The notes under the pieces: generated by a model
Seen by the model: only the letters and a program-made list of their open reading frames with translations
The model's database searches: none
Told to the model about the DNA's origin: nothing
Position numbers and translations under genes: made by a program
In this document: positions 38,006 to 63,090 of the stretch, one piece after another
Layout of the letters: each line of letters opens with the position of its first letter
How positions within the stretch are numbered: position 1 is the stretch's first letter
From: Vibrio hyugaensis
GTDB lineage: Bacteria; Pseudomonadota; Gammaproteobacteria; Enterobacterales; Vibrionaceae
Length of the DNA: 64,000 nucleotides
Reading direction: 5' to 3'
Assembly: GCF_002906655.1 (NCBI RefSeq)
Contig: NZ_CP025795.1
Span: 1,240,001 to 1,304,000 of the forward strand

Positions 38006-38023
38006 CTTTTGTAGATGATCACA

Positions 38024-38082
38024 GATAACCAAGTTGGAAACTGTGATAACCGAGTTGGAAACCGATAACTAAGTTGGAAACT
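38024..38082. repeat. Triple tandem repeat after gcvP
   Basis: Three near-identical units start with GATAACC or GATAACT and end with AGTTGGAAAC, at 38024-38044, 38045-38063 and 38064-38082. They lie 19 bases after the gcvP stop and before its terminator. TCACAG (38019-38024) and CTGTGA (38041-38046) also bracket the first unit. They may be native mRNA or protein sites, or remnants of a transposon end. Confidence 0.6.
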
Positions 38083-38094
38083 AACTTGAAAACA

Positions 38095-38120
38095 AAAGGC
38101 GAACCATTTGGTTCGCCTTT
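38095..38120. terminator. Terminator after gcvP
   Basis: AAAGGCGAACC pairs with GGTTCGCCTTT around a short loop. It is the last host-like element before the AT-rich accessory DNA. Confidence 0.8.
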
Positions 38121-38125
38121 CTCAT

Positions 38126-38482
38126 TTTAAGCCTCATATCCCCAGTCACCTATCATCATGTCAGTCCACACAAGATGACTTAATTTTTTTTCTGGTTCGT
38201 AGTACTCGGTTTCTGTAAAAAGTTAACTAGATTCAGATCATATCATAAGGCTCTTCATCGACCTCCCTCCCAAGAAGCGCCGACTCTCAGAAATCAAACA
38301 TTATCAATAGCCTATCAAATATGAGACTGATATAATATTAGGAATCTTTTACTGTTGTATAAAAAACAAACTCAGTTGTTAAGAATCCACTAATTAGGCT
38401 ATTAAAAAGCATATTTTTCATGTAATTAGTGAATCCGTTACTATTTATTACTTGGTAACTAGAACAAACTATATTCAAGGAA
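38126..38482. other. Left junction region of the accessory island; candidate operator
   Basis: This 357-base gap has no gene. Composition turns AT-rich here, so the junction between host and island is placed in or near it. CACTAATTA (38388-38396) and TAATTAGTG (38423-38431) form a perfect 9-bp inverted repeat with a 26-base spacer, about 50 bases before the first island gene, and may be an operator. No convincing transposon terminal repeat was found. Confidence 0.4.
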
Positions 38483-39610
38483 GTGGTGTTGGTCGATCAA
38501 AGTGTAAATGCAGGTGTTACTGCACAGCAGGGCTTCGCCTTACAGCGGAATATGGCTCTTTTCTTAATACTGGACAACTACGATAGTAAATTTGATGGCT
38601 CAAAGTACTTTCTATCCCTAGAACATTTAGAAGATATATTATTCTGTCATCTAGACGATCACGGCCAGGCTGTCAAAGTAGAGACATATCAATCAAAAAA
38701 GAAGTCCGTTGGCAATTGGTCTATTGATGCTGAACTTGCCGAGATAATAGTAAAAATACTCAAGGTAGGGAAAACGCTATTAGCAGACCCCCACCCTAAG
38801 TGCAGCAACTATAGTCACGACCTTCACTTTTCTTCTAACTCTAGTATGAAATTAACGACGAAAGTAAAATGTGGCGCTGATGGAAAGCAGACAACTAAAA
38901 CCTATAGCCAAATCGTAAGTGAAGCAGACTCAGAAGTAATCTACTCAGAATTAGATCCCATAATACAAAATGCTCTAACCACAAAACTTACAACGCATGA
39001 TTCATACAACAGTGAAAATTTGTATGAAGAACTAAACAATTTAAAATTCTTGTACATCGATTTCAGTCGAACAAATAAAGAACAAGAAAATCAGTTAAGA
39101 ACCAAACTCGAAGATATCTTTGATAGAAAAATAAGTGACTCTAAGGCTGCACTGGATTCGATCTTTAGGCTGTTCAGAGATGTTGAATTAACATACAACC
39201 AGCAGAGTATGGCTCGGCTGTCAGATAAGTCAAAGCAAGTACACAGTCAAGATATCAACAATGCTATCGAAATCATAACCACCAAATCAAAAGCATTCCA
39301 GTTTTGGCGAGACCATAGTAGAGACATTAGCCGAAAGCTAGGAGTTAAACCATTTGAACGAGACTCATTTGAAATGAAGTTCAGCCTAGCATTTGACCTA
39401 TTTAAGAGCAAAGATGAAGCAGAACATCAGAAGATCCTGAGATTTGTAAAATCTAATTATCGTAAGTGTAGTGGATTCAGTGAAGATGACTGCATAGAAG
39501 AACTAGTAGATTTGTTCAATCAAAATCATAACTCCAACTTGGACGAGCAAACTTTAAAAGCCACCATGTATGCAGCTTACTTTGAATCTATTAATAAAAT
39601 GGACGATTAA
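38483..39610 (+). CDS. DUF4297/Cap4-type dsDNA nuclease (Lamassu LmuA-like)
   Basis: A 375-residue protein. The N terminus (GVTAQQGFALQRNMALFLIL) and the following LEHLEDILF and VETYQSKKK segments match the DUF4297/Cap4 nuclease pattern of the PD-(D/E)xK superfamily; the likely active-site residues are Asp51, Glu68 and Lys72. The rest is helical and unassigned. Starts at 38483 (GTG), 38486 (GTG) or 38489 (TTG) all follow AAGGAA; the exact codon is open. It lies two bases before a Rad50-like ATPase gene. A nuclease with a Cap4 domain next to an SMC-like ATPase is the layout of Lamassu systems, but the third component is missing. Confidence 0.6.
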   Translation: MVLVDQSVNAGVTAQQGFALQRNMALFLILDNYDSKFDGSKYFLSLEHLEDILFCHLDDHGQAVKVETYQSKKKSVGNWSIDAELAEIIVKILKVGKTLLADPHPKCSNYSHDLHFSSNSSMKLTTKVKCGADGKQTTKTYSQIVSEADSEVIYSELDPIIQNALTTKLTTHDSYNSENLYEELNNLKFLYIDFSRTNKEQENQLRTKLEDIFDRKISDSKAALDSIFRLFRDVELTYNQQSMARLSDKSKQVHSQDINNAIEIITTKSKAFQFWRDHSRDISRKLGVKPFERDSFEMKFSLAFDLFKSKDEAEHQKILRFVKSNYRKCSGFSEDDCIEELVDLFNQNHNSNLDEQTLKATMYAAYFESINKMDD

Positions 39611-39612
39611 AA

Positions 39613-41343
39613 ATGGGAATTTCAGTAGAATATAACAAATTCTTTGCATATAGCAGCAAGGCAGAAAAATATTTTGATTCTACCTTCTCTAAGGGAATTA
39701 ATATTGTTCATGGTAAGAATACATCTGGTAAAAGCACATTTATTCAGGCACTGCACTATACCTTTGGAATCAATGATGAAAAAAGGAAACTTGCCGACTT
39801 ATTGACAGAGAATGTGATTTTTAGACTAGATTTGACTATTCACAACCCTGCGCCTACCAATGTTTCGATAGTTCGAGATGATGAGATCGTTTCTATTAAA
39901 GTTGGCGAACAACCACCAATTAAGTTCATAGGTATTGGCGGTAATAACTCGCGAGAACATGTTAAGCTGAAAGTGTTTTTGTCTGAGCTATTGGGCTTTA
40001 CCCTACAACTAGAGTATGACAATGAATATAAACCAGCATCGCTGGAAGCGATGTTTTTGCCTTACTACATAGCACAAGACGTTGGCTGGGTTTATCGCCA
40101 CAAATCATTCCGAGGTTTGGACTTTGTTAAGAACTTTAAGAACGATTTTTTTGACTACTTTCTAGGTATTACAAATAATTACGACCGCCTTGAAAAAACT
40201 CGCCTCGATCGGGAAAAGAAAGAACTAGAAGCTGAATCTAGGCTTCTTCACAAGATCGAGCAAAACAACAAGAAGTTCAAATTAGCTAAAATGAAGGATG
40301 AAGCATTTACAGCTAAAACTAACGAATACATCGAGCCGTATAAAGAGAATAAATCTGAGCTGATTAGGCTAGAAAAAGAATACTTGTCCATATGCAACAA
40401 GATAACACTACTAGAGGAAAGTAGAAAAACTCTGCTTAGGGTTAGGCGTAACCTGAAGACAAATATTCTGGCCGCTGAAAAGTGCCCTACGTGCTCGCAC
40501 ACACTATCTCATTCAATAGAAGATACTTATAATTTTCTCCAAGACAAGAATGATACTGAAACGCAAATAAAAGAGTTAAACAAAAACATCAAAGCACTCA
40601 AAGATTCTCAAGGAAAATTGAACTCAATAATCAATGACATTGACGAGAAACGCCAGATGGTTGAGCAGGATTATTATGAACTCTTAGAGTATAAGGTTGA
40701 CGATGTAACCTTAGACTCATGGTTAAAAAATAAAGTCAACGTAGAGGTATCAGGAGAGCTCAATAGTAAGCTTGGTGAAATAACATCAAGAATACTGTCT
40801 ATTGAAGAAGAACTAAGCAAATTCAAAACCGATGAAGCCGTTAAAAAAGAAAGAAGAAATGCAAGTTATTCATTCAAATCTACTTTTGAAAAGTATACGT
40901 CTGAATTGCACGTGAAACCTTTTGAAGACGATAGGTTCTACTTACTCTATGACATACCTGCATTTCCAAGACAAGGCGTTGAATTGTTGAAGACTCTTCT
41001 GGCTTACAATTTCACCTTTGTAGAGACGATTAAAAAAACTGAGTATGTGCATGTATTGCCGTTCGTACTTGATGCCATATTTGAAGGTGATTTCGAGGAT
41101 GAAAGCAAGGATGAGATTCTTCATTTTATCAAAAGTCATACGCCATCAGATCAACAGTTCATTTTTTCAATAGCCGACTCAAAAAGTAACGCACATTCTG
41201 CTAAGTCATACAACATAAAACATTTTGAGGGTAACGCTAACCTGATTTGTATCGGAGAGAATACTAAGCAAAGATCATTTCTTGCGGACTACCGAGGGGA
41301 ATGCGACCAGTATATCAGTGAAACTATGGATATTTTAAGTTGA
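39613..41343 (+). CDS. Rad50/SMC-like ATPase with zinc-hook motif (LmuB-like)
   Basis: A 576-residue ATPase. Walker A HGKNTSGKST is at 33-42, the Q-loop region AMFLPYYIAQDVGW at about 146-159, and a coiled coil (about 190-400) carries a CPTC hook at 291-294. The Walker-B-like segment VLPFVLDAIF is near residue 485. Such short hook ATPases serve as DNA-end sensors in Lamassu-type defence. ATG 39613 follows the nuclease stop by two bases, so the two proteins probably form one complex. A hairpin follows the stop. Confidence 0.7.
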   Translation: MGISVEYNKFFAYSSKAEKYFDSTFSKGINIVHGKNTSGKSTFIQALHYTFGINDEKRKLADLLTENVIFRLDLTIHNPAPTNVSIVRDDEIVSIKVGEQPPIKFIGIGGNNSREHVKLKVFLSELLGFTLQLEYDNEYKPASLEAMFLPYYIAQDVGWVYRHKSFRGLDFVKNFKNDFFDYFLGITNNYDRLEKTRLDREKKELEAESRLLHKIEQNNKKFKLAKMKDEAFTAKTNEYIEPYKENKSELIRLEKEYLSICNKITLLEESRKTLLRVRRNLKTNILAAEKCPTCSHTLSHSIEDTYNFLQDKNDTETQIKELNKNIKALKDSQGKLNSIINDIDEKRQMVEQDYYELLEYKVDDVTLDSWLKNKVNVEVSGELNSKLGEITSRILSIEEELSKFKTDEAVKKERRNASYSFKSTFEKYTSELHVKPFEDDRFYLLYDIPAFPRQGVELLKTLLAYNFTFVETIKKTEYVHVLPFVLDAIFEGDFEDESKDEILHFIKSHTPSDQQFIFSIADSKSNAHSAKSYNIKHFEGNANLICIGENTKQRSFLADYRGECDQYISETMDILS

Positions 41344-41372
41344 GATACTTAGCTTAATCACCAAACTCATCA

Positions 41373-41395
41373 AGCGCGAGCCTACTGCTCGCGCT
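41373..41395. terminator. Hairpin after the Rad50-like ATPase gene
   Basis: A perfect 9-bp stem AGCGCGAGC/GCTCGCGCT with a CTACT loop lies 30 bases after the stop. There is no T-run on either side, so termination is uncertain. Confidence 0.5.
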
Positions 41396-41471
41396 GCTCT
41401 AGTTAGATACCCAGTATCTCCACCAAATTCAGATGCAATTAGTATCAATTACACCATAAACCGTGCGCTCT

Positions 41472-41924
41472 TTATCGCATTCTTGCCTGTAGCCCATACC
41501 GTAGAGGTATTGCTGACATATAAAAAGGTGAACTCCTGTGATAAAGCAAGTTCTTATATGATTCTTTAGTTTCAAAAGACATTATAACAACCAGAGAGTT
41601 ATTCGCAGCGACGATAGCCGACCTCAGCCAGAAAGTCTCATTACACTCCAAAGGTGCCAGCGCGTCAGCTCCTTCAAAGATGACAAGTGTCTTGCGTCTA
41701 CAACCTTCCAAAGTAGCAACCAGTTCTCGATTCTCTTCTGCTGTGAAAGCAACTAGGGGGGATGCATACTCATTAAAGTTCAGATTAAAGACATCTATGC
41801 CTCTACTCTTAGCTCGGTCTCTACACACATCCAAGTAGCCCTCTGGTGTATGCTCAGTTATCAATGAGCAGATGGTGAGCTCTAGTTCCCATGCCATACT
41901 GATAAATATTTCTGCGCTAACCAT
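41472..41924 (-). CDS. Small unknown protein divergent from the Tn7-like operon
   Basis: A 150-residue protein that I do not recognise. It has an acidic, mixed alpha/beta look, with a hydrophobic strand ending in Asp (KTLVIFEGADALAP) that resembles a Walker-B strand, but no Walker A. It could be a truncated or degenerate ATPase. It is divergent from tnsA across a 423-base gap. The start ATG 41924 is the first ATG; the ribosome-binding site is weak. Whether it belongs to the transposon or to the preceding nuclease pair is unclear. Confidence 0.45.
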   Translation of the reverse strand: MVSAEIFISMAWELELTICSLITEHTPEGYLDVCRDRAKSRGIDVFNLNFNEYASPLVAFTAEENRELVATLEGCRRKTLVIFEGADALAPLECNETFWLRSAIVAANNSLVVIMSFETKESYKNLLYHRSSPFYMSAIPLRYGLQARMR

Positions 41925-42124
41925 AACCAAGCCTAACTAATCATCACATGTTTGTAATTTTAGCCTCTTTAAAAAAGATATCTAACTCTGTCGAAAATAA
42001 GCAACCAGACCAATAAATTTGCATGTTTTATCAGTTTTTTTTAAGTCAGGGATCCAAGTGTACGATCCGTGAACAATCCTTTCTTAAAGCAATGAAATAT
42101 AAAGGCATTAGATTCTATATCGAT

Positions 42125-42258
42125 TTATATAAGGAATAATAAATAAGCCTAATGAAAAACTGCAAATTCCATGTATCACTTCAAATATCACATTGAATTA
42201 CAAGCTTTTCTAATTCAGATCCCTAAGCTCTAAACTAATTATATAAGTTATAATAAAT
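42125..42258. repeat. Two 20-base direct repeats upstream of tnsA
   Basis: TTATATAAGGAATAATAAAT (42125-42144) and TTATATAAGTTATAATAAAT (42239-42258) match at 18 of 20 positions. Spacing and length are in the range of TnsB binding sites at Tn7-like ends, but they could also be regulator sites. The 423-base gap 41925-42347 holds no gene. Confidence 0.4.
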
Positions 42259-42347
42259 CCTTTATTTACAACCACTTATAAGCACAGCCAGTTAGACAAA
42301 CCCTAGAAAGGCTGCTAACAATATATTAGTAAGTGAGGATTAGGCAT

Positions 42348-43211
42348 ATGAAAATAGTTAAGCAACCATACATAACAAACTATGAGCTCAGAAAATTAGA
42401 AAAACACTTAAAGAAGATTAAGAATGGCGAGTACGAGCCATATATTACAGTTCGCCGTTCAAATAGTGTCGGTCTATCTCATATTGTTTTCAGTCACAAG
42501 ACGAAACGCTGCCATCACTTATTCAGCCTAGGTGAGCTTGCTCTATTCTTTCATCTTGAGCACGATCCTGAAGTCTTGGATATACAAGAGCAATACCCCT
42601 TACCGATAAATGAAACTCTCGAGTGGGCTAAACATCTGAATTATCGACACCCTGCTAAATACAAAGAAAGGGATGGTAAAGATATTCCTGCTGCAACCAT
42701 GACCACGGATTTCGTTGTCACCTTGTATGATGCGACGAGAGACCAGCTTGGCGTTCAGCCGTATAACTATAAACCGACCTCAGCACTAAGCACTGAATTT
42801 GAGCCTCCCCAAAAAGTCACACGAACCCAACAAAAGTTCAAAATTGAAGAGATGTACTGGGGGCATTACAACCATCATCTAACGCAAATAACAGATGAAG
42901 ACTTAAACCCCAACAAAACATACAACCTTCAATGGCTTAGAGAGACTTACCATCATGTACGCGAGAGCCAAATCGAAGGCCCACTGTGCGAAGGGATGTT
43001 AAACACTCTAAACAAGAGCCTTATGAACGACCCAGAGAAAACTCTAAAGCAGCATTTGAATCACGCATCATTAGTACATGATGTAACCGAACTTGCTGCG
43101 TTAGAGATATTTCAACATCTTGCGTATTCAGGTCAACTAGACGTTGACCTGAATGAGCGCATAGAAGTTTTTCGCCCTGTAATGATGATTACGCAACACG
43201 ATGAGAATTAA
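42348..43211 (+). CDS. tnsA: Tn7-like transposition protein TnsA (endonuclease)
   Basis: A 287-residue restriction-endonuclease-like protein that cuts the 5' ends of the element, so that transposition is cut-and-paste. Candidate catalytic residues are Glu63 (in SLGELALFF), Asp121 (in TTDFVVT) and Lys142 (in YNYK), in the same order and nearly the same spacing as in Tn7 TnsA. The start ATG 42348 is preferred, with AGGA upstream. It overlaps tnsB by 11 bases. The length is close to the 273 residues of Tn7 TnsA. Confidence 0.9.
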   Translation: MKIVKQPYITNYELRKLEKHLKKIKNGEYEPYITVRRSNSVGLSHIVFSHKTKRCHHLFSLGELALFFHLEHDPEVLDIQEQYPLPINETLEWAKHLNYRHPAKYKERDGKDIPAATMTTDFVVTLYDATRDQLGVQPYNYKPTSALSTEFEPPQKVTRTQQKFKIEEMYWGHYNHHLTQITDEDLNPNKTYNLQWLRETYHHVRESQIEGPLCEGMLNTLNKSLMNDPEKTLKQHLNHASLVHDVTELAALEIFQHLAYSGQLDVDLNERIEVFRPVMMITQHDEN

Positions 43212-45378
43212 TCAAAAATTAGTCGATGGCAAAAAAAGGCTTGAATATCTTATCGTAGATATTTGCCAAGACCTCGACCAAATTGCTGTCACTCAGCTCA
43301 ATGTTGAACGCCCTAAAAGGCCTCATACGATTATGCTAAGTGATACGTTGAGGCAAATAGAGCTGGGCAAATGGAAAGTGCTAGAGCATTCCTTTAGCCC
43401 TTACCTATACATGTCGGACGAAGAGTTACTGAAGGATAAGAAGCGCAGAAAGTGGTTACAACGCAGAGATAGCAGCTTTAACATTATTGCCCCGTTAATC
43501 GATAACGACGAACTACGTTACAACTATCTTTTTATCGATAGCAGTTCAATCTTACATCGATTGATAGAAACATCAGGTCGCAGCCGCAGTTATGTAGCAA
43601 AAATTTTAAATCGTTACTGGTATTACGGTTCTCACGTCAATGCTCTACTCCCTCTATGGAGAAATTGCGGAACGAATCAGTCTTTACCTGAAGTACCGTC
43701 ATTTGACCAAGACCCTGAGTTAGGCAAAAGTGGCCCGAAAACCAGATATGGAAGTCCTTATCGTGGAATCACTCAGCAAGACATTAAACATATTCGACGA
43801 TTTGCTAAAACCATTCCAAACGGTGGCAAAGCTAGGCTGAGTGACCTTTACGATCAGTTTACACGCAAGTTCATGTATGCACGTGTTAAACCAATGATTG
43901 AAGAAGCACATGAGATAGCTTTGCCTGTTCCAAGGGCCAAACTCATTTCACGAAATGCATTTAAATATCATTTTAAGCAAAACGTAGATCAACTTGAATT
44001 GATAAGGAAGGCTGTCGGCACGACCAATTTTCAAAAAGACTTCCGAGGCCGTGCAGGCCTCGCTCGACAGGGTGTTCGTGGCCCCACAAGCCGTTATGAA
44101 ATAGATGCAACAGTCGTTGATCAATACATACGCTATCCCTACGACAAAACCAATCAGTTAGCCACGGGACGCCCTGTGATCTATCTAGTTGTAGATACGT
44201 GGTCTGGCATGTTTGTTGGCACTCACGCTTGTTTTCACGGCCCAGATTGGACTGGAGCATCACAAGCCCTTTTCAATGCTTTTACCAACAAAGTCCAGTT
44301 TGCTAAACGCTATGGCGTTGAAATTACTGAAAACGAATGGCCGTGCCACCATGTCTGCTCACAGTTAGTCATGGATCGAGGTTCCGAGTATACAGACCGT
44401 AACATTGAAAGCACGCTTAAGGGCGAAATTGGCTTATCAATCGCCAGTTTCGCTCCGTATCATCGCGGGGATTGTAAAGGAACTGTCGAGAAAGCATTTG
44501 ATATCTTTCATCAAAATGCTGTTCGATTTGTGCCTGGTCAAGTCATGAAAGTACCCAGCAAGGAAGAGCAACACGCTTCTAGAAAAGCGTCGATGTCCTT
44601 CGAAGCATTCATGGAAAAGCTCATAAGGACAATCATTTATACCAATAACAACCGCCTTAGAAAGAACAACCATAACTTCGAGATGTCTCGTGATGATGTT
44701 GGTTTCTCTCCTAGAGACTTATATCTCTACGGGCTAGAAGAAATGATGATACCGCCAGCTCAGATTCCTGAAGAGCGACTTCGTTTCGCATTGCTCCCTG
44801 CTGACAAGGCGACTGTGAGAATGGAGGGCGTTTACTTTAAGGGGCTGTATTACAGCGCTAACAAAATCATTCATAAACAATGGTTAGACAAAGCTCGTAA
44901 TTTTGGCCGATACACAGTGGAAGTTCGATACGACCAAAATTCAACGAACTTTATTTGGTGTAAAGACCCTGAATCTAACGAACTAATTACTTTAGAACTC
45001 ACTGATCGCTCTGAAGCGTATCGTAATCAAATTTGGCAATCGACCCTTCATGAAATCGAATTAACCAAACAAAAACAAAGCCTTCATGAAGAACATTCAT
45101 TCGCTAACAAAATTGAGTTCTTAAACAAACTGGATGAAATCGATAAACAAGCAAAAGCTGACGCTCGATACTTAAAAACATCGTCAGCAAAGTCTATCCA
45201 GACAGGTATCAAAGAACGAAAGAGTATCGTCTCTTCTATTGAACGCAGCAAACAATCTGAGCAAATAGCAGCAACGTTAAGTTCCGAAGGTAACGCTAGC
45301 TCCACTGCTAAAAAGAATACCCAACACTTGGAAACACCTGATTTTTTTGACTTTGATGATGAACAAGATGATAGCTAA
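43201..45378 (+). CDS. tnsB: Tn7-like transposase TnsB (DDE integrase)
   Basis: A 725-residue DDE-type transposase that joins the 3' ends to the target. The integrase core has Asp302 (in YEIDATVVD), Asp392 (in LVMDRGSEYTD) and Glu430 (in KGTVEKAFD), so the catalytic triad is complete. Helix-turn-helix DNA-binding regions lie before it. The C-terminal tail (about 640-725) is charged and probably contacts TnsC. It overlaps tnsA and tnsC, so translation of the operon is coupled. Confidence 0.94.
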   Translation: MRINQKLVDGKKRLEYLIVDICQDLDQIAVTQLNVERPKRPHTIMLSDTLRQIELGKWKVLEHSFSPYLYMSDEELLKDKKRRKWLQRRDSSFNIIAPLIDNDELRYNYLFIDSSSILHRLIETSGRSRSYVAKILNRYWYYGSHVNALLPLWRNCGTNQSLPEVPSFDQDPELGKSGPKTRYGSPYRGITQQDIKHIRRFAKTIPNGGKARLSDLYDQFTRKFMYARVKPMIEEAHEIALPVPRAKLISRNAFKYHFKQNVDQLELIRKAVGTTNFQKDFRGRAGLARQGVRGPTSRYEIDATVVDQYIRYPYDKTNQLATGRPVIYLVVDTWSGMFVGTHACFHGPDWTGASQALFNAFTNKVQFAKRYGVEITENEWPCHHVCSQLVMDRGSEYTDRNIESTLKGEIGLSIASFAPYHRGDCKGTVEKAFDIFHQNAVRFVPGQVMKVPSKEEQHASRKASMSFEAFMEKLIRTIIYTNNNRLRKNNHNFEMSRDDVGFSPRDLYLYGLEEMMIPPAQIPEERLRFALLPADKATVRMEGVYFKGLYYSANKIIHKQWLDKARNFGRYTVEVRYDQNSTNFIWCKDPESNELITLELTDRSEAYRNQIWQSTLHEIELTKQKQSLHEEHSFANKIEFLNKLDEIDKQAKADARYLKTSSAKSIQTGIKERKSIVSSIERSKQSEQIAATLSSEGNASSTAKKNTQHLETPDFFDFDDEQDDS

Positions 45379-46762
45379 TTATATACCTCACCCTAACTCT
45401 CAGATGGCACAAAATCCTCTGATTGAAGCGCTTGGAATGCCATTGCTACCTAAACAATTTATCCAGGCAACAACACTATCTCCTGACATGATGATTGATG
45501 TCAGTTCGCTCCCTACTGAGCATCATGGTTACTACACCAGAACATTCATTGATAACCTATCTGAGTGCTATGTTGTTCAGGATGAAGCCCCACGCCTTTA
45601 TGACACCGTATTTCGCATGATTGAGCGAGGCTATATCTATCGCAACCCTTTGGTGTATGGCGATATTAAACAATTGCAATTTGCCGACTCTATTGAAATA
45701 CCTGAAGGGCAAGAGCGCACTCTAAAGCAAACAGCAAATCAGCAGAGTTTTTTGGTAGCAGGTCTATCAGGTCGCGGAAAGTCAGCGATGGTAGAAAGCA
45801 TCTTGTCTGCCATTCCTCAAGTCATTTCACATCAAGAGTACCAAGGACAAAAGTTCATCTACGAACAGATTGTCTGGCTCAAGATCGATATCCCAACTGC
45901 TCGCGGGCAGCGTGCACTACTCTGGAGGATTCTTGAGTCCATCGATTCGGTAACTGGTGAGAATTATTACGAATCACATCAGAAAAGCTCAGTTACAGCA
46001 CTAATGATTGCGGTTCGTAAGGCTCTACTCATCCATGGTGTTGGGATTATTGTTCTAGATGAAGCTCAGAACCTATCTGAAACTCGACAGTACGAGAAAG
46101 TCGGTAACAACGAGAACGCCACACTAAAGTTCGTGGAAGAGTTGTTTAACAAGGTTGGTGTACCACTATTACTCGTCGGGACACTATCAACACTTAATCT
46201 GTTTTCTAAAGAGATGACTGCCGCTAGGCGAATTGGAAAGACAGGGTCGCTAATCTTAGAGCAATGTGATGTTGAAAGTTCGTTTTGGAGACGCTTCATT
46301 AAGCAAATGTGCCCGACACAATTACTTAAGAATCAGACAACTGACATTGATACTCTAACGCGCCATGTTCACTACTTATCAGCAGGGATCCCTGCTATCG
46401 CGAGCAGCCTAATAAAGGCCACATTGTCTTATCTGACTTATCTAACACCAAACAATCAAGACCTAAGCATGGCTGCTCTAGACCATGTATTTAAAGAGCA
46501 GTTTCTCTTGGTCTCGGGGGCATTAACGGCACTAAAGCGTGGTCAGTTTTATAAATATGAGGATTGCAATCCTTTATCTCAATTGCACTCGGTTCAACAA
46601 GATTTGTTTTCAGAAAGTGGCTCAAATATTGACGGCAACCAAGTCTGTAAGCAATCACCTAGAAGCTCTAGTTCTGCCGTAAACCTTACTGAGAAAGACC
46701 AAGAAATGCTAGAGAGCTTAACTCCTGAAGCCTTATTAGCGCAGGCTAGAAAGTATGAATAA
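45356..46762 (+). CDS. tnsC: Tn7-like AAA+ regulator TnsC
   Basis: An ATP-dependent target-complex adaptor of 468 residues. Walker A GLSGRGKS is at about 136-143 and Walker B IIVLDEAQ near 232-239. It connects the TniQ/TnsD target selectors to the TnsAB transposase. Several starts are possible (TTG 45347, ATG 45356, 45359, 45368), all inside the end of tnsB. The gene overlaps the tniQ start by 8 bases. Confidence 0.92.
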   Translation: MMNKMIANYIPHPNSQMAQNPLIEALGMPLLPKQFIQATTLSPDMMIDVSSLPTEHHGYYTRTFIDNLSECYVVQDEAPRLYDTVFRMIERGYIYRNPLVYGDIKQLQFADSIEIPEGQERTLKQTANQQSFLVAGLSGRGKSAMVESILSAIPQVISHQEYQGQKFIYEQIVWLKIDIPTARGQRALLWRILESIDSVTGENYYESHQKSSVTALMIAVRKALLIHGVGIIVLDEAQNLSETRQYEKVGNNENATLKFVEELFNKVGVPLLLVGTLSTLNLFSKEMTAARRIGKTGSLILEQCDVESSFWRRFIKQMCPTQLLKNQTTDIDTLTRHVHYLSAGIPAIASSLIKATLSYLTYLTPNNQDLSMAALDHVFKEQFLLVSGALTALKRGQFYKYEDCNPLSQLHSVQQDLFSESGSNIDGNQVCKQSPRSSSSAVNLTEKDQEMLESLTPEALLAQARKYE

Positions 46763-47669
46763 CATCTTGAACCTGCTACCGAACGAACACCTAAGAAGCT
46801 TCCTTAGCCGAGTTCATACTATGTCCCCTTTTGGCACTTTTGCTACTTCAGCAAAACGTGTAGGGCTGGCTAATTTCAGTGCGTCGCCAGTTACAGTCAT
46901 GTCTGACCTAGACACCATTCTGATGAATATTCTTAATGATGACAATCGTTCGATTTGGCAAATGCATATGCACGGTAACGTCATCGAGTCTTTCCTCAAC
47001 GAGCGAGAGAAGCGCGAACTACCATTGTTTTTGAAAGGAAAGCCATATGACATCGACTTTACACAATCCCAAACGGTACATAATCGTTTTTGGCGCTACT
47101 GCAAAGACTGTATTTCTGAAGACTTAGATACTGTTGGTATTTCATATTTTCACCAACAGCACCAACTACAGGGTGTTTTTCACTGCTACAAACACGGAAC
47201 GAGGCTCATTAATAGCTGTTCTTCATGCACTTACACTGTAAAGAACCTTAGTCGAATGCAAACCCCAGCATTAATCTGTCCGAGCTGTGGTTCCAGCATG
47301 ACAAGTCAGAGAGCGTATTATGATGAAACAATGCTAAAAGTTGAACAGCTTATGTTGGCGTTAAACGATCAAACGCTCACCCTATGCCTTGAATCAGTGC
47401 AACAAAATACGTTGGCACACATCGGTTTTACGCTTGAGCAAACTGAAACGTTGGCTTTTAAGAAAGCTTGTGGCGATTGGTACAAAGAGATTTTCGTGAC
47501 TCTAGGGAAAGGCGCTCTAGAGCAGTACTTCTCGAACACGAGGAAGGTAAATGATCACATAATTTCTCCCACTATGAGGACTACACGCTTATTTTTATCG
47601 ACTTCAACAAACAGATTTAGTCCACCACTGATCTACATTCTCATGCTGGTTGCTACAGGACAGTTATAG
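46755..47669 (+). CDS. tniQ: TniQ-family target-selection protein (short)
   Basis: A 304-residue TniQ protein. It begins with the family pattern (LPNEHLRSFLSRVHTMSPFG) and has CxxC-type zinc-binding pairs (YCKDC and ICPSC) with an intervening HCYKHG segment. It lacks the long C-terminal DNA-binding half found in the TnsD next door. In other Tn7-like elements a short TniQ works with another targeting module, such as a CRISPR effector or a second pathway; none of the cas genes are in this window. It overlaps tnsC by eight bases. Confidence 0.87.
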   Translation: MNNILNLLPNEHLRSFLSRVHTMSPFGTFATSAKRVGLANFSASPVTVMSDLDTILMNILNDDNRSIWQMHMHGNVIESFLNEREKRELPLFLKGKPYDIDFTQSQTVHNRFWRYCKDCISEDLDTVGISYFHQQHQLQGVFHCYKHGTRLINSCSSCTYTVKNLSRMQTPALICPSCGSSMTSQRAYYDETMLKVEQLMLALNDQTLTLCLESVQQNTLAHIGFTLEQTETLAFKKACGDWYKEIFVTLGKGALEQYFSNTRKVNDHIISPTMRTTRLFLSTSTNRFSPPLIYILMLVATGQL

Positions 47670-47673
47670 ACCT

Positions 47674-49257
47674 ATGTACCTGCACGAAATAGCTGGTGAA
47701 GCCTTTTATAGCCTTGTTGCGCGACACCACGCAGCCTCACCAAGACGCTCGCTACGCGAAAAAAACCGAGCTCTCCTAGGGCGCACAGATGTTCGCATTA
47801 ACCCCCAGCTTCCTTGCATGCTCAAACAAGTTGCCAAACAGACCTCAATAGATACGAAAAGGTTGTTGTTTAACAGTACTTGTTTCCCTGTTGTCGGCGC
47901 TTGCCTTCAAGATAACAAAAGCAAAGCAAGACTTAGATGGCACCTGTTGAGCAATGATGGCAGTCACATCGCGGTCTTATCACGTACTACTTCTTCTCGG
48001 CTACGATTTAGCAGCGCACTAAAGTTCTGTCCGCAATGCCTTGAGGACGACACATTGAAATGGGGTCATGGTATTTGGCGTACCGTACATCAGTATTGCG
48101 GTATGTTCGTTTGTCCAAAGCATGCTTGTTGGCTGCAATATACACCGACAGATGCCGATGGCCTTAACAAACGCATCGAACTACCACCAACACCTTACGA
48201 TAGATGTTTCCATGGTTCTGATCTTTGTTTAGAACGAGCGTTGAGGTTATCGCAATTCATCAGTAGTTGGCATCGCTATGAGTGCGAACGTCCATCCGAG
48301 CATATTGCTACAACCACTCACTCATCTTGGCTGAATAAGACCCATTTGTTAACTCAGAAAGGACAGATCAGGCAATCAGAAGCAATTAATCGTCTACAAG
48401 ACTTTTGGGCTCCTCTATTTGCTGGTGCAAAGCTACTGCCTTCGAAACTATATCAGTTCAATTTCTTAAGGTGCCTTCTCCTAAACGACCACTACAACCA
48501 TTACATACAGCATGCATTGGTTGGCGCTTTCTTTGCGAAGAACGCCAAGTGTTACTTTCTACAAACTGATCAGGTCTCAAATTACTGTAGTCGGGAATCT
48601 CATAAACCTCGTGTCTGTCTATCCGAGCTGACCTCAGGAAGCTCACTTCGTTCTGTCGCCAAGGCGACAGGGTGTTCGGTTGGCTTTTTGGCAGCCATGG
48701 CGCAACGCAATGGGGTCACAATCAAGCATCGATTTAAAAGACTCAACGATGCACTGGTCGACCAAATATTGAGACTCGCTTTCCGCGGGATCCATAGACG
48801 AGATATTGCCAAGTTATGCGGTGTTAGCGTTGGTACAGTAGAACAGCAAATTAATGCAATGTCAGGATTATCCGCATGGAGAAAACGACTCTGGTTCTGC
48901 CAAAAACGACATCAATATCGTCAAACACTCCAGAAGATCATTTTCCAAAACCCAACATTAACTCGGACAGAGATTAAACATTCGAGCAGTTGCTATATGT
49001 GGCTATTTCGATATGACAAAGACTGGCTAAACCAGCACTTACCAAAACGAGAGCCAGCTAAGTACCATCAATCTATTGATTGGAATCAGGTAGATAAAAA
49101 GCTGGCTAAACAAATTAAGCAACACGTAAAGAAGGCTACTTCGGTGTCACACGTCGAAAGACAGGTGGACTCACAACACTCATTAATCAAAAACAGAAAA
49201 CGCCTCCCCCTTTCGATTGGGCAAGCGGAAAAAATCGTCTCAGAATCCAAAAATTAG
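47674..49257 (+). CDS. tnsD: TnsD-like TniQ-family target-site selector
   Basis: A 527-residue protein with an N-terminal TniQ domain (EAFYSLVARHHAASPRRS) and a zinc-binding part (CPQC, then CGMFVCPKHACW). A C-terminal half carries helix-turn-helix-like repeats (SLRSVAKATGCSVGFLAAMA and HRRDIAKLCGVSVGTVEQQI). It is close to the length of Tn7 TnsD (508), which binds a fixed attachment site. The start ATG 47674 lies just after the tniQ stop; an upstream TTG at 47650 would overlap tniQ. The att site recognised here is unknown. Confidence 0.88.
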   Translation: MYLHEIAGEAFYSLVARHHAASPRRSLREKNRALLGRTDVRINPQLPCMLKQVAKQTSIDTKRLLFNSTCFPVVGACLQDNKSKARLRWHLLSNDGSHIAVLSRTTSSRLRFSSALKFCPQCLEDDTLKWGHGIWRTVHQYCGMFVCPKHACWLQYTPTDADGLNKRIELPPTPYDRCFHGSDLCLERALRLSQFISSWHRYECERPSEHIATTTHSSWLNKTHLLTQKGQIRQSEAINRLQDFWAPLFAGAKLLPSKLYQFNFLRCLLLNDHYNHYIQHALVGAFFAKNAKCYFLQTDQVSNYCSRESHKPRVCLSELTSGSSLRSVAKATGCSVGFLAAMAQRNGVTIKHRFKRLNDALVDQILRLAFRGIHRRDIAKLCGVSVGTVEQQINAMSGLSAWRKRLWFCQKRHQYRQTLQKIIFQNPTLTRTEIKHSSSCYMWLFRYDKDWLNQHLPKREPAKYHQSIDWNQVDKKLAKQIKQHVKKATSVSHVERQVDSQHSLIKNRKRLPLSIGQAEKIVSESKN

Positions 49258-49268
49258 GAACTATTACT

Positions 49269-49862
49269 ATGAAATTTCTCGGTAAATTCAAACAAATTTT
49301 CGAAGCACACGAAGTCAAACCTCACTTACGTGACATCGCGATGTTTGTGACTCTTAATAATACAAGGCTCTATCCGAGAGAGCAGTTTGATGAAAATGGA
49401 GACATTCATCCGTACCTAGCACCACGTCTTGACCTGATTAAGATCATCAAACAAGAAAACTCAGTTAAGTGGTTCTTTACTGAAAGAACTTATCAAATTT
49501 GGGATTACAAAGTACCTGTTAGGCGCCCAGCTTTCCTCAAGGCACGCATGAAGCAATACATGAAAGCCGAAAAGTTGTTTGAGCAAAGTCGTAACTATGT
49601 CACAGCTAGCCCTGCATCACTCTTAAGAAGAGACGATGAAGCGAAAGTGTTCAACATGTTCTGTGATTACATGCTCACATTTAATCAAATCGCTGTTGAG
49701 AGCAAATCTATAACATTGAATGAATGGCTTGTGTGGTTTTCAGACATCAGGCGTATTGAAGCACAAAAAGAAGAAAACAAAGAAAAACAAAGACGTCACC
49801 GAGAAGTTATCGCTGAATGTAACAAATTGGAAGATGACCAAGACTCAACCGACGAAAATTAA
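49269..49862 (+). CDS. Small protein with YPxxQFD motif, paralogue of the next gene
   Basis: A 197-residue protein of unknown role, 11 bases after tnsD and so in the transposition operon. A motif LYPREQFDE at 34-42, and NYVTASP at 109-115, recur in the next gene at about the same spacing. The FxxF/W-Q-F-D pattern resembles the Xre/MbcA/ParS toxin-binding family, which suggests a protein-interaction fold; this is inference only. The C-terminal 35 residues are charged and helical. The ribosome-binding site AGGAAC precedes ATG 49269. Confidence 0.6.
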   Translation: MKFLGKFKQIFEAHEVKPHLRDIAMFVTLNNTRLYPREQFDENGDIHPYLAPRLDLIKIIKQENSVKWFFTERTYQIWDYKVPVRRPAFLKARMKQYMKAEKLFEQSRNYVTASPASLLRRDDEAKVFNMFCDYMLTFNQIAVESKSITLNEWLVWFSDIRRIEAQKEENKEKQRRHREVIAECNKLEDDQDSTDEN

Positions 49863-49903
49863 CCGTATGATGACCAACGCAATGATCGCTGTGAGGAGAT
49901 CTG

Positions 49904-50347
49904 ATGAATAAGCTCGAAACTAAGCGATTAAAAGCTATTGTCTCGCTTCTCAACGGCCTAGAACTAATTTCTCATGAGGAATTACCCGAAGAGCAGCACA
50001 ACGCTCTTTGTATCAATGTGAACGGCTGGAGGTACTACCCGTCCTTTCAGTTCGATGAGCATTTTAACCTTATAGATAACCTTAGAAACAATCTTAGTCT
50101 CATGCGAGAAGGCCGAGACGACACTGATATTCTACTTTGGATGGTCTCCGAGAAATCGGTATTGGTGGAGCGAGCAGTTGCTCCACCAGCATTAGTTTCT
50201 AAATACCTAGATAAAGGTGACTTAGAAGGCTACGAGAGATTGGTCTCAGCAGAAGCGCAAAGTCATAAATACGTAACCGCTAAGCCCTGTGACTTGATTG
50301 ATGACCCGCTGTTTGAGGTGTTCGTTGAGGACTGGTTTAATTGGTAA
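49904..50347 (+). CDS. Small protein with YPxFQFD motif, paralogue of the preceding gene
   Basis: A 147-residue protein. YYPSFQFDE is at 44-52 and KYVTAKP at 122-128, matching the preceding protein over most of its length, apart from the charged C-terminal tail. A strong ribosome-binding site, AGGAG, lies 6 bases before ATG 49904. It is the last gene of the tns operon before convergent genes. Possible roles are partnering TniQ/TnsC or acting as an antitoxin-like regulator. It is not recognised with certainty. Confidence 0.6.
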   Translation: MNKLETKRLKAIVSLLNGLELISHEELPEEQHNALCINVNGWRYYPSFQFDEHFNLIDNLRNNLSLMREGRDDTDILLWMVSEKSVLVERAVAPPALVSKYLDKGDLEGYERLVSAEAQSHKYVTAKPCDLIDDPLFEVFVEDWFNW

Positions 50348-50370
50348 TCACACTCAGAAATGGGCATCAT

Positions 50371-51549
50371 TTATCTGTTATTAACAACATAATTTAGTCC
50401 ACCAATTTGGTTAAGGGCATCAACTAAGAATTTTTGGTATTGAACTCTTTTTTGACTATCGGACAAATTTAGATTTAATAGACGTCTTAGGTTCTCTGTA
50501 CTATTTAAACACTGTTCTAAGTTTTGTTGCCCTAAAGATTCTTGATACTGATAGCGTTCAATTAAGTCTATAAACTGCTGTTTACAAATAAATTTATTAT
50601 AGCTTGCTTCTAATTCAAATAAGCTAACGCTTAAATCGGCACCGCAGCCAACACTTTTAACTAGCACTTCAACATCTTCTCTCGATATTCTTCGGTCAAC
50701 AGGGTAAGAGAATTCAAACAACTGCTCTTGAGGGAACGGCTCTTCGTGTGGATGATAGTACCCCAACATTTCATTTGTTTTCTTGAAGTCACTATTACAA
50801 CGAGTTCCTGCGGGAACGAAATTGTATAAAGAAAGGGATAGAAATGGATACTTCGACTTAGGATAGAAGTGGTCAATCGCAGGTCTATATCGATCGAATG
50901 GCTCAATAACTTCTTCAGCGCAATATGGGCAAAAGCTAATTTCGAGACTTTGGACTATCTCTCTACCAAAACTTTGAATTAAGTAATCATAATTAAAAGC
51001 ACTATCTAAATCATTAACCCAATTTGGAAAACAATCAATCTGAGCGTCGGAAAGTTTAGAACTACCAGAGGTCAAAGTTGTCAGCTTTTTAAATAAGTCT
51101 CTCAAATCTCTGGGCGTTACAGTATTAGCTAACTGTTCTCTGTAGGACTCAAGGAGTAATGAGCGTCTAGTGGAGTTAAATTCATCGATGCACTCTATAA
51201 CGATATCCTTTAAAAGAACGATTCTATCTTTGTCTACATTGCGTCGAATGTTGTAGTCAGTTGGATCAAAAGTAAAAGCAAAGTTTTGAAAGAAAACCTT
51301 CCGATTATATCTTTCTGATAGAATTGGTAATTCTTCAAAAATTTCCTGAAAAGCTAATTGCAGACACTGTACGTCCCCCTTAATAAGGATACTTAATCCA
51401 CTTTCACCAAAAAAACATTCAAGTAGATCTCTATATTCTTCAGGCGCATCTTCCACAATTCGATTTATCCTATCGCGCATGTACTGTTTACATACACCCT
51501 CGTAACGATTCACCAAATCTTCAGCATAATTTGCGTTCAAATAAATCAT
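50371..51549 (-). CDS. HNH endonuclease of an ATPase-HNH pair (Septu PtuB-like)
   Basis: A 392-residue protein with an HNH/McrA-like zinc finger in the middle (about 203-260): CPYC, then AIDHFYPKSKYPFLSLSLYNFVPAGTRCN. The paired Cys, the DH and the Asn of the fold are present. It lies two bases after the ATPase stop and is co-transcribed. In Septu-type systems the ATPase activates an HNH nuclease against phage DNA. The flanking N-terminal 200 residues are unassigned and make it longer than typical PtuB. It is convergent with the tns operon; no terminator is visible between. Confidence 0.72.
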   Translation of the reverse strand: MIYLNANYAEDLVNRYEGVCKQYMRDRINRIVEDAPEEYRDLLECFFGESGLSILIKGDVQCLQLAFQEIFEELPILSERYNRKVFFQNFAFTFDPTDYNIRRNVDKDRIVLLKDIVIECIDEFNSTRRSLLLESYREQLANTVTPRDLRDLFKKLTTLTSGSSKLSDAQIDCFPNWVNDLDSAFNYDYLIQSFGREIVQSLEISFCPYCAEEVIEPFDRYRPAIDHFYPKSKYPFLSLSLYNFVPAGTRCNSDFKKTNEMLGYYHPHEEPFPQEQLFEFSYPVDRRISREDVEVLVKSVGCGADLSVSLFELEASYNKFICKQQFIDLIERYQYQESLGQQNLEQCLNSTENLRRLLNLNLSDSQKRVQYQKFLVDALNQIGGLNYVVNNR

Positions 51550-51551
51550 TA

Positions 51552-53234
51552 CTACTCGCTTAGCATTAGCTTAATATTTGGATTTTTTACTTTAGAAATC
51601 AGCAGTTTATCAAAACCAGTCTGTTCACCATTTAGCTTGTTGTTTAAGATATTGTCAATATATGTTTTTGAATGTTTACCGAAAGTAGATTCTAAGTGCA
51701 TACCATCCATATAAAGCTGCAATATCTGTGTACCAAACCCGTACGATTCTCCAACTTTTGGAGCACTGGCTGATTCACGGTAAAGAGAAACAATATCTTC
51801 AGGTAAGAAGTCCCCAATAATAATAGGAGAGTGAGAAGTAACAACAAACTGAACTCTCTCTGTAGGATACTCTGTTTTTAAAAAGCTTAGCGTGTCCGCC
51901 AAAAACTCCCTCTGCCAGTCTGGATGTAAGTACAGATCCACTTCATCCATTACAATCAGATGACTTTCTAAATGGTCACGTTTTTTATCTTTGATGTAGT
52001 AAAAAAGTTGAGCATACAAATTCAATTTTGCAAACTCTCCCGTGCTAAACCCTTTCCAACCATAGTGAAAGTTAGATACGACATTACTAGGTAACTTGGA
52101 TATAGACATCATCAAATCAATAATGAATGAAGTCTGGGAGGAAACAATCCTATCAGCATCCTTAATCCCAACATCGCTCCTATGAGCCATTATACACTCG
52201 GATATATCACTGATAATGCTAACAACATCATTAAATCTTTTGCATACGATAAGGGCATCGGCATGAGAGACGCCTTTCATTTCTGAATACTCATACATGT
52301 CGCTGCGAAGTAATAAATCTAACACTTTATCTGGTTCTGAAAGACTTAACCTCCCAGACATAAAACCAGCAAGAAGCTTCAGGAACATATAATCTTGTAA
52401 GCTCGCTCGAAATGAAGAGTACTTTGTTGCGTACCGAAGGGCCGACAGAAGGTTTGCACGTAGCAGTTCTGAAAATAAAGATACCTTGGGATCATCTATC
52501 GAGCTTGAAACGAGTGTTGGCTTAGAGACAAGCATATGTTCTAGTAGTTTAATTTCTTTAGGTGTAAGGTCAAAATCAACCTCAACTTGCTCTCTTGCTA
52601 AAAGATTCTTGAGATAAGTAGAGGAAGAAGACTTGAAAAAAAACTCAAACTCTACTTTGATATTTTTCTCTGTTGCCATCCAAGAACTGTTCGCAAAAAA
52701 GCTCATTAGCCGCGATATTCGCTCGGCTAACTTTGTAGAGCTTCCTGTTTTGTATTGAGCTAAGGTCAAATCGTGCGAAAACACATTCTTTCGTGTCCTT
52801 CGAGAAATCGTACTTGATTCCCCTCCAGACAAGTTGTTAGCTTTAATCAACCTCACCTTATGATAGTTAAGAAATCTTCGATAGTTGCTGCTGACTTTAA
52901 CGGTATTCGACGACTCAATATCAATAGACTCAATGTCATAGTTGATAGGGCAAATGTGGTAGGTTTTTTCCTTATCGTTGAACCACACAAAGAACCCAGA
53001 TGAGTCCGTAGCTTCATACGAAGACTCTATGAAATCTAGTAAAGTACTTTTCCCAGTACCATTTTTGCCTACAATCGCAGTACTTTGAATCCCATAGTAA
53101 TAATCTAGGTTGTTCTCAACACGTCTAAGGCATAGCGTCCTATTCTCGAAAGTTATTCGGTGTGAGTTTGATAAACTGACCCCGATCTCTTCAAGGACAT
53201 TGTGTTGCTCTACGTATACATAAGCTAGTTTCAT
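51552..53234 (-). CDS. AAA/ABC-type ATPase of an ATPase-HNH pair (Septu PtuA-like)
   Basis: A 560-residue ATPase of the OLD/RecF-like type. Walker A VGKNGTGKST is at 55-64, the ABC signature FSTGEFAKL about 415, Walker B LIVMDEVDLYLH about 438-448, and the H-loop VTSHSPIIIG about 475. No TOPRIM follows, so nuclease activity is expected from the HNH partner. The first gene of a two-gene operon, it begins at ATG 53234. A known relation to Septu is likely but should be tested by profile search. Confidence 0.72.
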   Translation of the reverse strand: MKLAYVYVEQHNVLEEIGVSLSNSHRITFENRTLCLRRVENNLDYYYGIQSTAIVGKNGTGKSTLLDFIESSYEATDSSGFFVWFNDKEKTYHICPINYDIESIDIESSNTVKVSSNYRRFLNYHKVRLIKANNLSGGESSTISRRTRKNVFSHDLTLAQYKTGSSTKLAERISRLMSFFANSSWMATEKNIKVEFEFFFKSSSSTYLKNLLAREQVEVDFDLTPKEIKLLEHMLVSKPTLVSSSIDDPKVSLFSELLRANLLSALRYATKYSSFRASLQDYMFLKLLAGFMSGRLSLSEPDKVLDLLLRSDMYEYSEMKGVSHADALIVCKRFNDVVSIISDISECIMAHRSDVGIKDADRIVSSQTSFIIDLMMSISKLPSNVVSNFHYGWKGFSTGEFAKLNLYAQLFYYIKDKKRDHLESHLIVMDEVDLYLHPDWQREFLADTLSFLKTEYPTERVQFVVTSHSPIIIGDFLPEDIVSLYRESASAPKVGESYGFGTQILQLYMDGMHLESTFGKHSKTYIDNILNNKLNGEQTGFDKLLISKVKNPNIKLMLSE

Positions 53235-53332
53235 AATTTTTTCTATCTGTTTGAGTTAGCTATTGCAGTTCTGTGATCGCACATTAGTCAAAAAGCAAAA
53301 ACCAACATAAAATCAATCAATTAAAACTTCCA

Positions 53333-54388
53333 TTAATCATACTTTAGTTCACCAAATAAACCTATCATCAAATCATCTTCGAGAATTTCATATGGTAGTT
53401 CTAAATATTCCTTAGAGTGTCGAGGGATTGCTTTTCCATCAAACGGAGCGTTCTTAGTGTGCCCTTGCACGTACTCTCCATTTTCCTTCACATAAGGTAA
53501 GACAACGATACGACCATGGTTTTTAGAAAGAATACTCCCTGTTTTCCAAAGTGTATTACCATTCTCATCAGCCTTGCTATAACTTGCCTCTTTGACGACC
53601 CACCCTATGTCTTCATTATCTTCAAACCAAAACACGAACCCTGATGCAACCACTACCTTATTACCTTTTAGCTCTGCTTCTAGCAGCATTCTTTTGACAC
53701 TCGCTAATTGAAGTAATTTATTTGCTTGTGGCAGTAGCAACTTACGAATCTTAGCTTTAGTTTTCCCCCAGTGACATTCTCCTTTCATCTGATAAGCAGA
53801 AGCAATTTGCTCTCGGTAAAAGTATTTTGCAGTTTGCTTGTTATCCTTGATCTTTGTTGACCAATCACTATCACCTGTTCGTATAAGGCCGACCCCATGA
53901 TGCTTTAGTCGAACAAATCTTAGATAAGGCATGTCACGTAAGAGAGCTAACAAAGGCGGTAAGAGTGCTTGAGAATTCGGAGGTAAAACGATTTCCTTCT
54001 CATTTGGCTTGGGATAGTTTTTATTACGACGCTTTCCTTCCAACAACATTAACTCTTCTTCACCAAACAAACGACTTTGCCGAACTACTGCTTTTTCAAC
54101 CTTTAAGCGCAATGAATCTCGCTCTATTTGCGTTAAGTGGATTTGTTCCACAACAGTGTTTAGGCCTTTGTTCCTCTCCTCCGCAGCGATTTTAGCTAAG
54201 CTATAATTGTCATAAACTTCGGCTTTCACATGACCTGATGCCGTCTTTACGAAGCTCTTGTACCATTTAAGGGAAGTATCATATTGAAGTTTGAGATCAT
54301 ACATCTGCCATCTGCCCGCTTCGTACCATGGCTGGGGCCATACTGCGAGTGTGGGTAATGAGTACCCAGGCATTTCTTCTGGTCGCAT
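53333..54388 (-). CDS. Unknown 351-residue protein
   Basis: No family recognised. The N-terminal part (about 1-60) contains several Trp and Tyr residues, a charged helical stretch follows at about 60-130, and the C-terminal half has strands with FVFWFEDNEDIGWVVKEAS and a basic region (GKTKAKIRKLLLPQANK). It is about 100 bases upstream of the ATPase-HNH pair, on the same strand, and may be its third component, but the gap argues against tight coupling. The start ATG 54388 is the only clear choice. Confidence 0.6.
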   Translation of the reverse strand: MRPEEMPGYSLPTLAVWPQPWYEAGRWQMYDLKLQYDTSLKWYKSFVKTASGHVKAEVYDNYSLAKIAAEERNKGLNTVVEQIHLTQIERDSLRLKVEKAVVRQSRLFGEEELMLLEGKRRNKNYPKPNEKEIVLPPNSQALLPPLLALLRDMPYLRFVRLKHHGVGLIRTGDSDWSTKIKDNKQTAKYFYREQIASAYQMKGECHWGKTKAKIRKLLLPQANKLLQLASVKRMLLEAELKGNKVVVASGFVFWFEDNEDIGWVVKEASYSKADENGNTLWKTGSILSKNHGRIVVLPYVKENGEYVQGHTKNAPFDGKAIPRHSKEYLELPYEILEDDLMIGLFGELKYD

Positions 54389-54620
54389 TTCAACACCTTG
54401 CTACTAAACTCAACTTAATAATTTCAGAGTACTCTAAATGCTACTAACACCACAATTCTCACCTTACCTTACAACCGCTTTGTGTAAGTAGAAATCAAAT
54501 GTTCATTCGTTAATGGCGAGAATATAAAAATAGTTATATCTGGGGCAGTGATTGCAACCCTATAACACAACTGATTGAATTATAACCTTCAAAAATGTAA
54601 TGTATATGCAATTGATTTAA

Positions 54621-54632
54621 TTCAACGTTGAA
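54621..54632. promoter_or_regulatory. Perfect palindrome at the start of the TIGR04141-type gene
   Basis: TTCAACGTTGAA is a perfect 12-base palindrome ending one base before the first in-frame ATG. It is a candidate operator in the 239-base divergent gap (54389-54627). Confidence 0.35.
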
Positions 54633-54633
54633 T

Positions 54634-56259: not shown

Positions 56260-56307
56260 GAATTGCACATGTTTGATTCGGTCTAGCGAGATTCAATTAG
56301 AAGATGT

Positions 56308-58409: not shown

Positions 58410-59051
58410 CTAAATCAACCCCATTTGAGTATCTAATTCATTTCCACCATCAGCTTCACTTTCCAGCATCCCTTCATTAATAGCGATAAACTCCAAAGTC
58501 TCATAAAGCAATGACCATTTCGCTGTAGCGATAAAGAGAGAACCAGTTGATGATGGAGATACAAAGTATCCTTCTTGGACAAGATAATCTAAGATAGACC
58601 TCAGCTTCGTTTTACTCTCTTTGCTTTTATGGGCTCTTTTAAGCTTGTGTGCAATATGATCAAGCTGATTTTGAAGTGAGTTACTTTCCTCTATTGCTGC
58701 GAGTAACTCTGACTCCGAAAGCTTGCCACCAGCCATGATAGGTCTGGAGTCTGAATCAATATTTCGGGCTAGTTTGAGCCAAGCGATTATTCCTTCCATC
58801 GTCTGCGAAAAAACTTCAAAGTCTTTGAGAACTTCGTTTTTCTTTCGAGTGTTATCGATGTTCTCGTATCCACAGTAAAAACCTAGGCCGTCTTGTGTTT
58901 CGACTGTTGTCATGCTTATTCGAGACAAGTATTGGTTCATGTCACTTCGATTTCTGGTATCGGATAAGTATGTGTACTCAATAGGAGATGCATATTCACA
59001 TATCACCTTTTTACTCATGAGCATTCGGAAAACCGATTCAAACTTATTCAT
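58410..59051 (-). CDS. Kite-like subunit of the SMC operon (JetB / MksE-like)
   Basis: A 213-residue protein. The C-terminal winged-helix segment (RSILDYLVQEGYFVSPSSTG, then AKWSLLYETLEFIAINEGM) fits the MukE/JetB kite pattern. It overlaps the end of the SMC gene by four bases and is directly followed by the kleisin-like gene. Identification rests on size, position and this segment. Confidence 0.62.
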   Translation of the reverse strand: MNKFESVFRMLMSKKVICEYASPIEYTYLSDTRNRSDMNQYLSRISMTTVETQDGLGFYCGYENIDNTRKKNEVLKDFEVFSQTMEGIIAWLKLARNIDSDSRPIMAGGKLSESELLAAIEESNSLQNQLDHIAHKLKRAHKSKESKTKLRSILDYLVQEGYFVSPSSTGSLFIATAKWSLLYETLEFIAINEGMLESEADGGNELDTQMGLI

Positions 59052-63046: not shown

Positions 63047-63090
63047 GTTAGAGTAAATTAGTACAGTTCATTTTGATAAGGGTAATCATT

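Follow-up and report, generated by a model that had tools for sequence, protein, structure and literature searches.

A gcvP-homing family of Tn7-like transposons with a paralogous pair of antitoxin-like proteins encoded behind tnsD

A 64,000-nucleotide stretch of Vibrio hyugaensis DNA (NZ_CP025795.1, positions 1,240,001 to 1,304,000; G000:C2:1240001-1304000 in a source genome of two contigs), hereafter the window, contains a Tn7-like transposon of 26,230 bp (38016-64245) that is inserted at the 3' end of gcvP and extends 245 bp past the window end. Its tns operon ends with two small genes, smA and smB, whose products are homologous by profile comparison to proteins encoded directly before RES-domain genes. 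The reading we favour, with something short of even confidence, is an element homing to the gcvP 3' end with a paralogous pair of presumed-antitoxin kin that would act by protein binding, the partner of first choice being a foreign RES-type toxin.

The element is sound and well bounded. The terminal sequence TGATCACAGATAACYAAG is present at both ends, each flanked by GTAGA, and the right end starts 10 nt past the gcvP stop. The left end, an inverted counterpart 245 bp past the window, has three spaced TnsB-type sites, and no listed open reading frame (ORF) of at least 90 aa overlaps these 245 bp. An operon of TnsA, TnsB, TnsC, a 304-aa TniQ and a 535-aa TnsD followed by two small genes had been proposed by an earlier sequence-only reading, and the ORFs and their Pfam matches bear this out (TnsA N-terminus, E 4.8e-10; others in the table); the coordinates given there (42348..50347) cover only the tns part of the 26-kb element. 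With an operon of TnsA, DDE-type TnsB, AAA-type TnsC and TniQ-TnsD, repeated TnsB-type sites, a 5-bp target-site duplication (TSD) and orientation-fixed homing, the element is a Tn7-like transposon. In agreement with the same reading, neither tnsE nor any cas gene was detected among the main ORFs of the element within the window (scanned from 80 aa upwards), and no Rfam match was obtained in 37000-64000. In these main ORFs and Rfam scans the element thus shows neither the cas genes nor the CRISPR RNA of a CRISPR-associated transposon. PADLOC matches of Csm2 to an MksE-like cargo protein (E 0.004 and 0.009) were weak and were taken as chance. The usual Tn7-like layout has no cargo between the right end and tnsA; this element differs in carrying cargo (Lamassu LmuAB) and a conserved 152-aa protein (orf152) there.

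The end pattern was found at 80 places in 57 of 329 Vibrionaceae genomes, and a reversed control pattern gave 0 matches. Right-type ends were defined as those reading AAGTTGG, with G302:C33:134690 and G175:C2:1570026 reassigned as left-type by position or inner sequence. Fifty-two of the 58 right-type ends lie at most 187 nt from gcvP, 47 of these being 8-13 nt past the stop. Four of the remaining six (G114, G116, G165 and G237) share their locus with an element whose left end is about 100 bp or less away, one (G137) lies 3.8 kb behind gcvP, and one, in Vibrio hepatarius (G302), belongs to a 2.9-kb derivative without tns matches, with TSD ACTTA and on another contig than gcvP. Exact 5-bp duplications were observed at 11 of 17 paired ends. 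Homing to the gcvP 3' end would presumably proceed through TnsD. In 46 of the 58 right ends there is a hairpin that shares its core with the gcvP terminator (L017:1264-1290), suggesting that the element may supply a substitute for the terminator displaced on insertion. A gcvP (glycine dehydrogenase) site of Tn7-like elements was not found in the literature searched, which was partially covered, and a word search of the Faure 2023 and Benler 2021 main texts gave no word starting with gcv. What is new is the gcvP site, together with its derivatives, and the relationship of smA and smB to RES-linked proteins.

Further arrangements were observed. In the source genome, the 20 kb that follow the element (G000:C2:1304259-1324332) contain six occurrences of the hairpin sequence, the gcvP terminator among them. 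At two loci (L189:2893-2949 and L041:631-687) a left end is followed, after a few bases, by a right end that is older and has one TnsB-type site only; these arrangements are traces of repeated insertion at one site. Two 1.6-kb derivatives (L160:3052-4618 and L161:3429-5007) have both ends at gcvP and no tns matches, one with genes that read as IS3-like and the other with a 266-aa ORF.

The two small proteins are paralogous. The motifs YPREQFDE and YVTASP of smA are 75 residues apart, and YPSFQFDE and YVTAKP of smB 78 apart, so that the motifs noticed by the sequence-only reading, which gave spacings of about 74 and 78, are both present. Outside the motifs, too, the proteins are homologous: BLASTP aligns 113 aa at 27% identity (E 2e-9), and smB copies score 2.6e-7 to 4e-5 with a profile built from six smA copies. 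Neither protein has a match in Pfam, NCBIfam or PADLOC. A TnsD at least 74% identical was found in 8 of 329 genomes, and seven copies are assessable, the G305 copy ending inside tnsD. In these, smA is present in 7/7 (broken in G116), and smB is intact in 5/7, with a remnant in G114 and none in G040; every carrier retains at least one intact gene of the pair. The genes therefore belong with the tns operon, and absence of the pair beside close tns homologues, which would have spoken against this, was not observed. The effector half of smA has been exchanged among operons whose remaining sequence from 42000 on is 88-100% identical, except in the last interval compared, at and behind the smB end (73%).

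It is quite improbable that smA and smB are ordinary cargo that happens to adjoin tnsD. Cargo does start directly behind smB, whose last codons vary between copies, and smB occurs without tns genes behind gcvP in Vibrio penaeicida (G275, left end about 8 kb away) and as fragments in other genomes. However, smA stands beside each of the seven assessable close tns operons, whose flanking cargo varies from copy to copy.

Relatives of smA and smB fall into three groups, namely those in tns operons, those standing alone and those encoded directly before a RES-domain gene (n = 5). Several stand-alone relatives adjoin umuDC-like or UmuD-like genes and mobile-element genes, as read from the sequence; the one UmuD-like neighbour scanned gave a chance-like Pfam match only. 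One RES-linked relative is chromosomal (PF08808, E 3.9e-7) and four are plasmid-borne by annotation; the latter are four of six records found, and one of the other two, when opened, listed no RES gene. A profile from ten tns-borne copies, compared with about 1040 ORFs, detected 3/5 RES-linked relatives at 2.3e-9 to 1.5e-7, the best unrelated match being 0.55. These profile scores show the homology of smA and smB to proteins whose genes immediately precede RES genes.

The predicted overall fold of both proteins is an Rv2175c-like winged helix, and the sequence profile reaches Rv2175c only at E 0.21. The helix-turn-helix (HTH) segment is short (20 aa), and no helix of at least 4 residues is predicted between residue 18 and the wing of smB, or before the wing of smA. 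In the models, the wing and the effector (partner-binding) half are kept and the HTH segment is shortened, so that the pair most likely binds a protein; we infer action on protein rather than DNA. In the Xre-RES system of Pseudomonas putida, the antitoxin C-terminal domain interacts with the toxin (PMC12204516), and by kinship a RES-type toxin would be the partner. As putative orphan antitoxins, smA and smB could neutralise a foreign RES-type, NAD-consuming toxin and so shield the element as well as the host or replicon that it enters; the second choice of partner would be a transposition component. The effector half of smA may act as an exchangeable specificity domain, which would fit the swap between near-identical operons. 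Rather doubtfully, one may go further and propose that the transposon recruited the partner-binding half of an antitoxin in the form of a rapidly evolving pair whose specificity domain can be exchanged, and which would either disarm NAD-consuming toxins of the cells and plasmids entered or serve as adaptors for the short TniQ. Such a class of transposon accessory protein was not found in a narrow, title-level search of the literature.

Several observations weigh against the favoured reading. No RES gene is present among the ORFs of at least 80 aa of the element. A PF08808 search found a RES gene in 4/7 carriers and none in G114, G040 and G116; this absence carries little weight, since the search also overlooked the linked RES gene that hmmscan finds in G170. 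The RES gene of G000 adjoins its own PF09722 antitoxin. None of 13 PF09722-type proteins, the type to which RES antitoxins usually belong, gave a match on comparison, and PF09722 (Xre_MbcA_ParS_C) gave no hmmscan match at E 0.1 and an hhalign probability of 0.3%. The RES-linked proteins of Mycolicibacterium and Paracoccus score 2.4 or nothing with the tns-only profile; scores of 4e-7 and 3e-8 are obtained for them only once every intermediate relative is included, and smA alone reaches even the nearer RES-linked proteins weakly (0.002 and 0.036). No Pfam HTH was detected in L153 or L050, so the label "HTH segment" follows from our reading and the Rv2175c match. Three close smA pairs gave ratios of 2.1 and 1.7 (dS, the synonymous distance, only 0.009), the third not being computable.

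The place of the pair in the tns operon suits a regulator of transposition equally well. As repressor, co-repressor or adaptor, smA and smB would then control tns expression or the activity of the complex, much like the Xre regulator of some CRISPR-associated transposons. They follow tnsD as the final two genes of the operon, at intervals of 11 and 41 nt, their predicted fold is that of a DNA-binding regulator, and the retention of at least one intact gene in all assessable carriers also agrees. Nevertheless, the stretch in which a recognition helix would lie is short in both and has no modelled helix of at least 4 residues, and one would hardly expect a regulator internal to the element to have its effector half swapped, as in smA; overall, we regard this role as somewhat unlikely. 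A regulatory or other protein-binding function, as the sequence-only reading had partly envisaged, is possible.

The same reading had proposed targeting parts, a role that the evidence disfavours. As accessory selectors, smA and smB would work with the short TniQ and direct the element to mobile replicons. In the main text of Faure 2023 (PMC10293859), a small TniQ is called a general hallmark of elements with additional selectors, and the frequent association of two TniQ proteins with two target modes is likewise published there. The 2.9-kb derivative of V. hepatarius adjoins a gene that reads as relaxase-like, and relatives of smB adjoin the mobile-element genes mentioned above. However, the sister elements of G237 and G165 (TnsD 41%, same ends, at gcvP) lack both genes and have a TniQ homologue, which in G165 is in two frames, with tnsB interrupted too. 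A relative on Aeromonas pASA4 (TnsA 39%, TnsB 43%, TnsC 46%, TnsD 32%) has TGATCAC termini, TSD GATCT and a conjugative-plasmid site, and no smA or smB relative was found there by tblastn at E 0.01; its tniQ is in two frames, so this case is not decisive. Taken together, a selector function appears improbable.

The sister elements of G237 and G165 carry a second TnsA (L093:4717-5586 and L094:6306-7157), 36-39% identical to that of the window, 2-3 kb behind tnsD. The orf152 protein is 68-78% identical in 6/6 other tns copies and 52-74% in the two sister elements; it also occurs without nearby tns matches in L159, L168 and L171, and its 3' part varies between copies. In L177:872-3729, the Lamassu genes are 97% identical to those of the window while the tns proteins of that element are 40-62% identical, indicating recent cargo exchange. 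The four genes of the condensin-like module were grouped by reading, and no PADLOC match names such a system.

Features of the window and of the element. Positions are those of the window unless a locus is given.
Feature	Position	Strand	Basis
gcvP, host gene, attachment site at 3' end	35141..38005	+	ORF; 52/58 right-type ends (57 genomes) within 187 nt
5-bp target duplication GTAGA	38011..38015; second copy L017:1246-1250 (246-250 bp past window end)		copy at each terminus
Tn7-like element	38016..64000 within window; left terminus G000:C2:1304245	+	matching termini and TSD
Right end, three TnsB-binding-like repeats at 38021, 38042 and 38061	38021..38082	+	TnsB-type repeats
Terminator-like hairpin inside right end, resembling the hairpin behind gcvP (AAAGGCGAACCA / TGGTTCGCCTTT)	38095..38120	+	core GCGAACC..GGTTCGC
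Cargo: Lamassu LmuA (38483-39610) and LmuB (39613-41343)	38483..41343	+	PADLOC E 8.9e-128, 2.1e-216
orf152, conserved protein, divergent from tnsA	41472..41930	-	conservation across copies
tnsA	42348..43211	+	PF08722, PF08721 (latter 0.1 bit below cut-off)
tnsB	43201..45378	+	PF09299; Mu-type TnsB C-terminus E 7.9e-5
tnsC	45347..46762	+	PF13401, PF05621; TniB E 2.2e-9
Short tniQ, 304 aa	46755..47669	+	PF06527; TniQ E 1.2e-6
tnsD, 535 aa	47650..49257	+	PF15978, PF06527; TnsD E 9.6e-27, TniQ E 3.9e-14
smA, antitoxin-like, shortened HTH segment, long C-terminal helix	49269..49862	+	profile comparison, models
smB, antitoxin-like, shortened HTH segment	49904..50347	+	profile comparison, models
Cargo: HNH-like protein (50371-51549) and ATPase (51552-53234), PDC-M62B/A-like	50371..53234	-	PADLOC 2.4e-27, 2.2e-37
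Cargo: DUF6119 protein	54628..56259	+	PF19614 E 1.9e-132
Cargo: condensin-like module, four genes (DUF7281, unnamed, MksE-like, DUF3584)	56308..62818	-	grouping by reading
Cargo: WYL-domain protein	63073..63966	+	PF13280 E 1.1e-11

The main differences among Tn7-like elements concern target choice and the additional genes that accompany the tns operon. The family described here is well bounded: it attaches at gcvP, includes derivatives without tns genes, and has two operon proteins whose kinship is unexpected but can be traced. Should the pair prove to neutralise toxins, the spread of a transposon would become linked to toxin-antitoxin systems; should its partner be TniQ, the pair would represent a further kind of target selector.

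Like the selectors TnsE and TnsF, smA and smB are extra genes in a Tn7-like operon; they have no Pfam match, and TnsF is a protein of 498 aa in the main text of Faure 2023 (PMC10293859). A complete winged HTH is present in the DNA-binding protein Rv2175c of Mycobacterium tuberculosis (PDB 2kfs), whereas smA and smB, at 15-16% identity to it in structural alignments, have no complete HTH in the models. Relatives of smA and smB resemble the Xre-RES antitoxins (PF09722/DUF2384), as described for P. putida (PMC12204516), in being encoded directly before RES-domain genes; unlike these antitoxins, smA and smB have no PF09722 profile similarity, a shortened HTH segment and no adjoining RES gene. In layout the element resembles the dual TniQ-TnsD transposons, of which the main text of Faure 2023 (PMC10293859) counts 998 loci, so that two TniQ proteins are a known layout. 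As described there, these have tnsABC, followed in tandem by a short TniQ and a larger TnsD, and insert site-specifically next to a conserved gene with a 5-bp duplication, as the present element does. It differs from that description in its gcvP site, in that no Cas, TnsE or TnsF was found, in its two antitoxin-like genes after tnsD and in having cargo also between the right end and tnsA.
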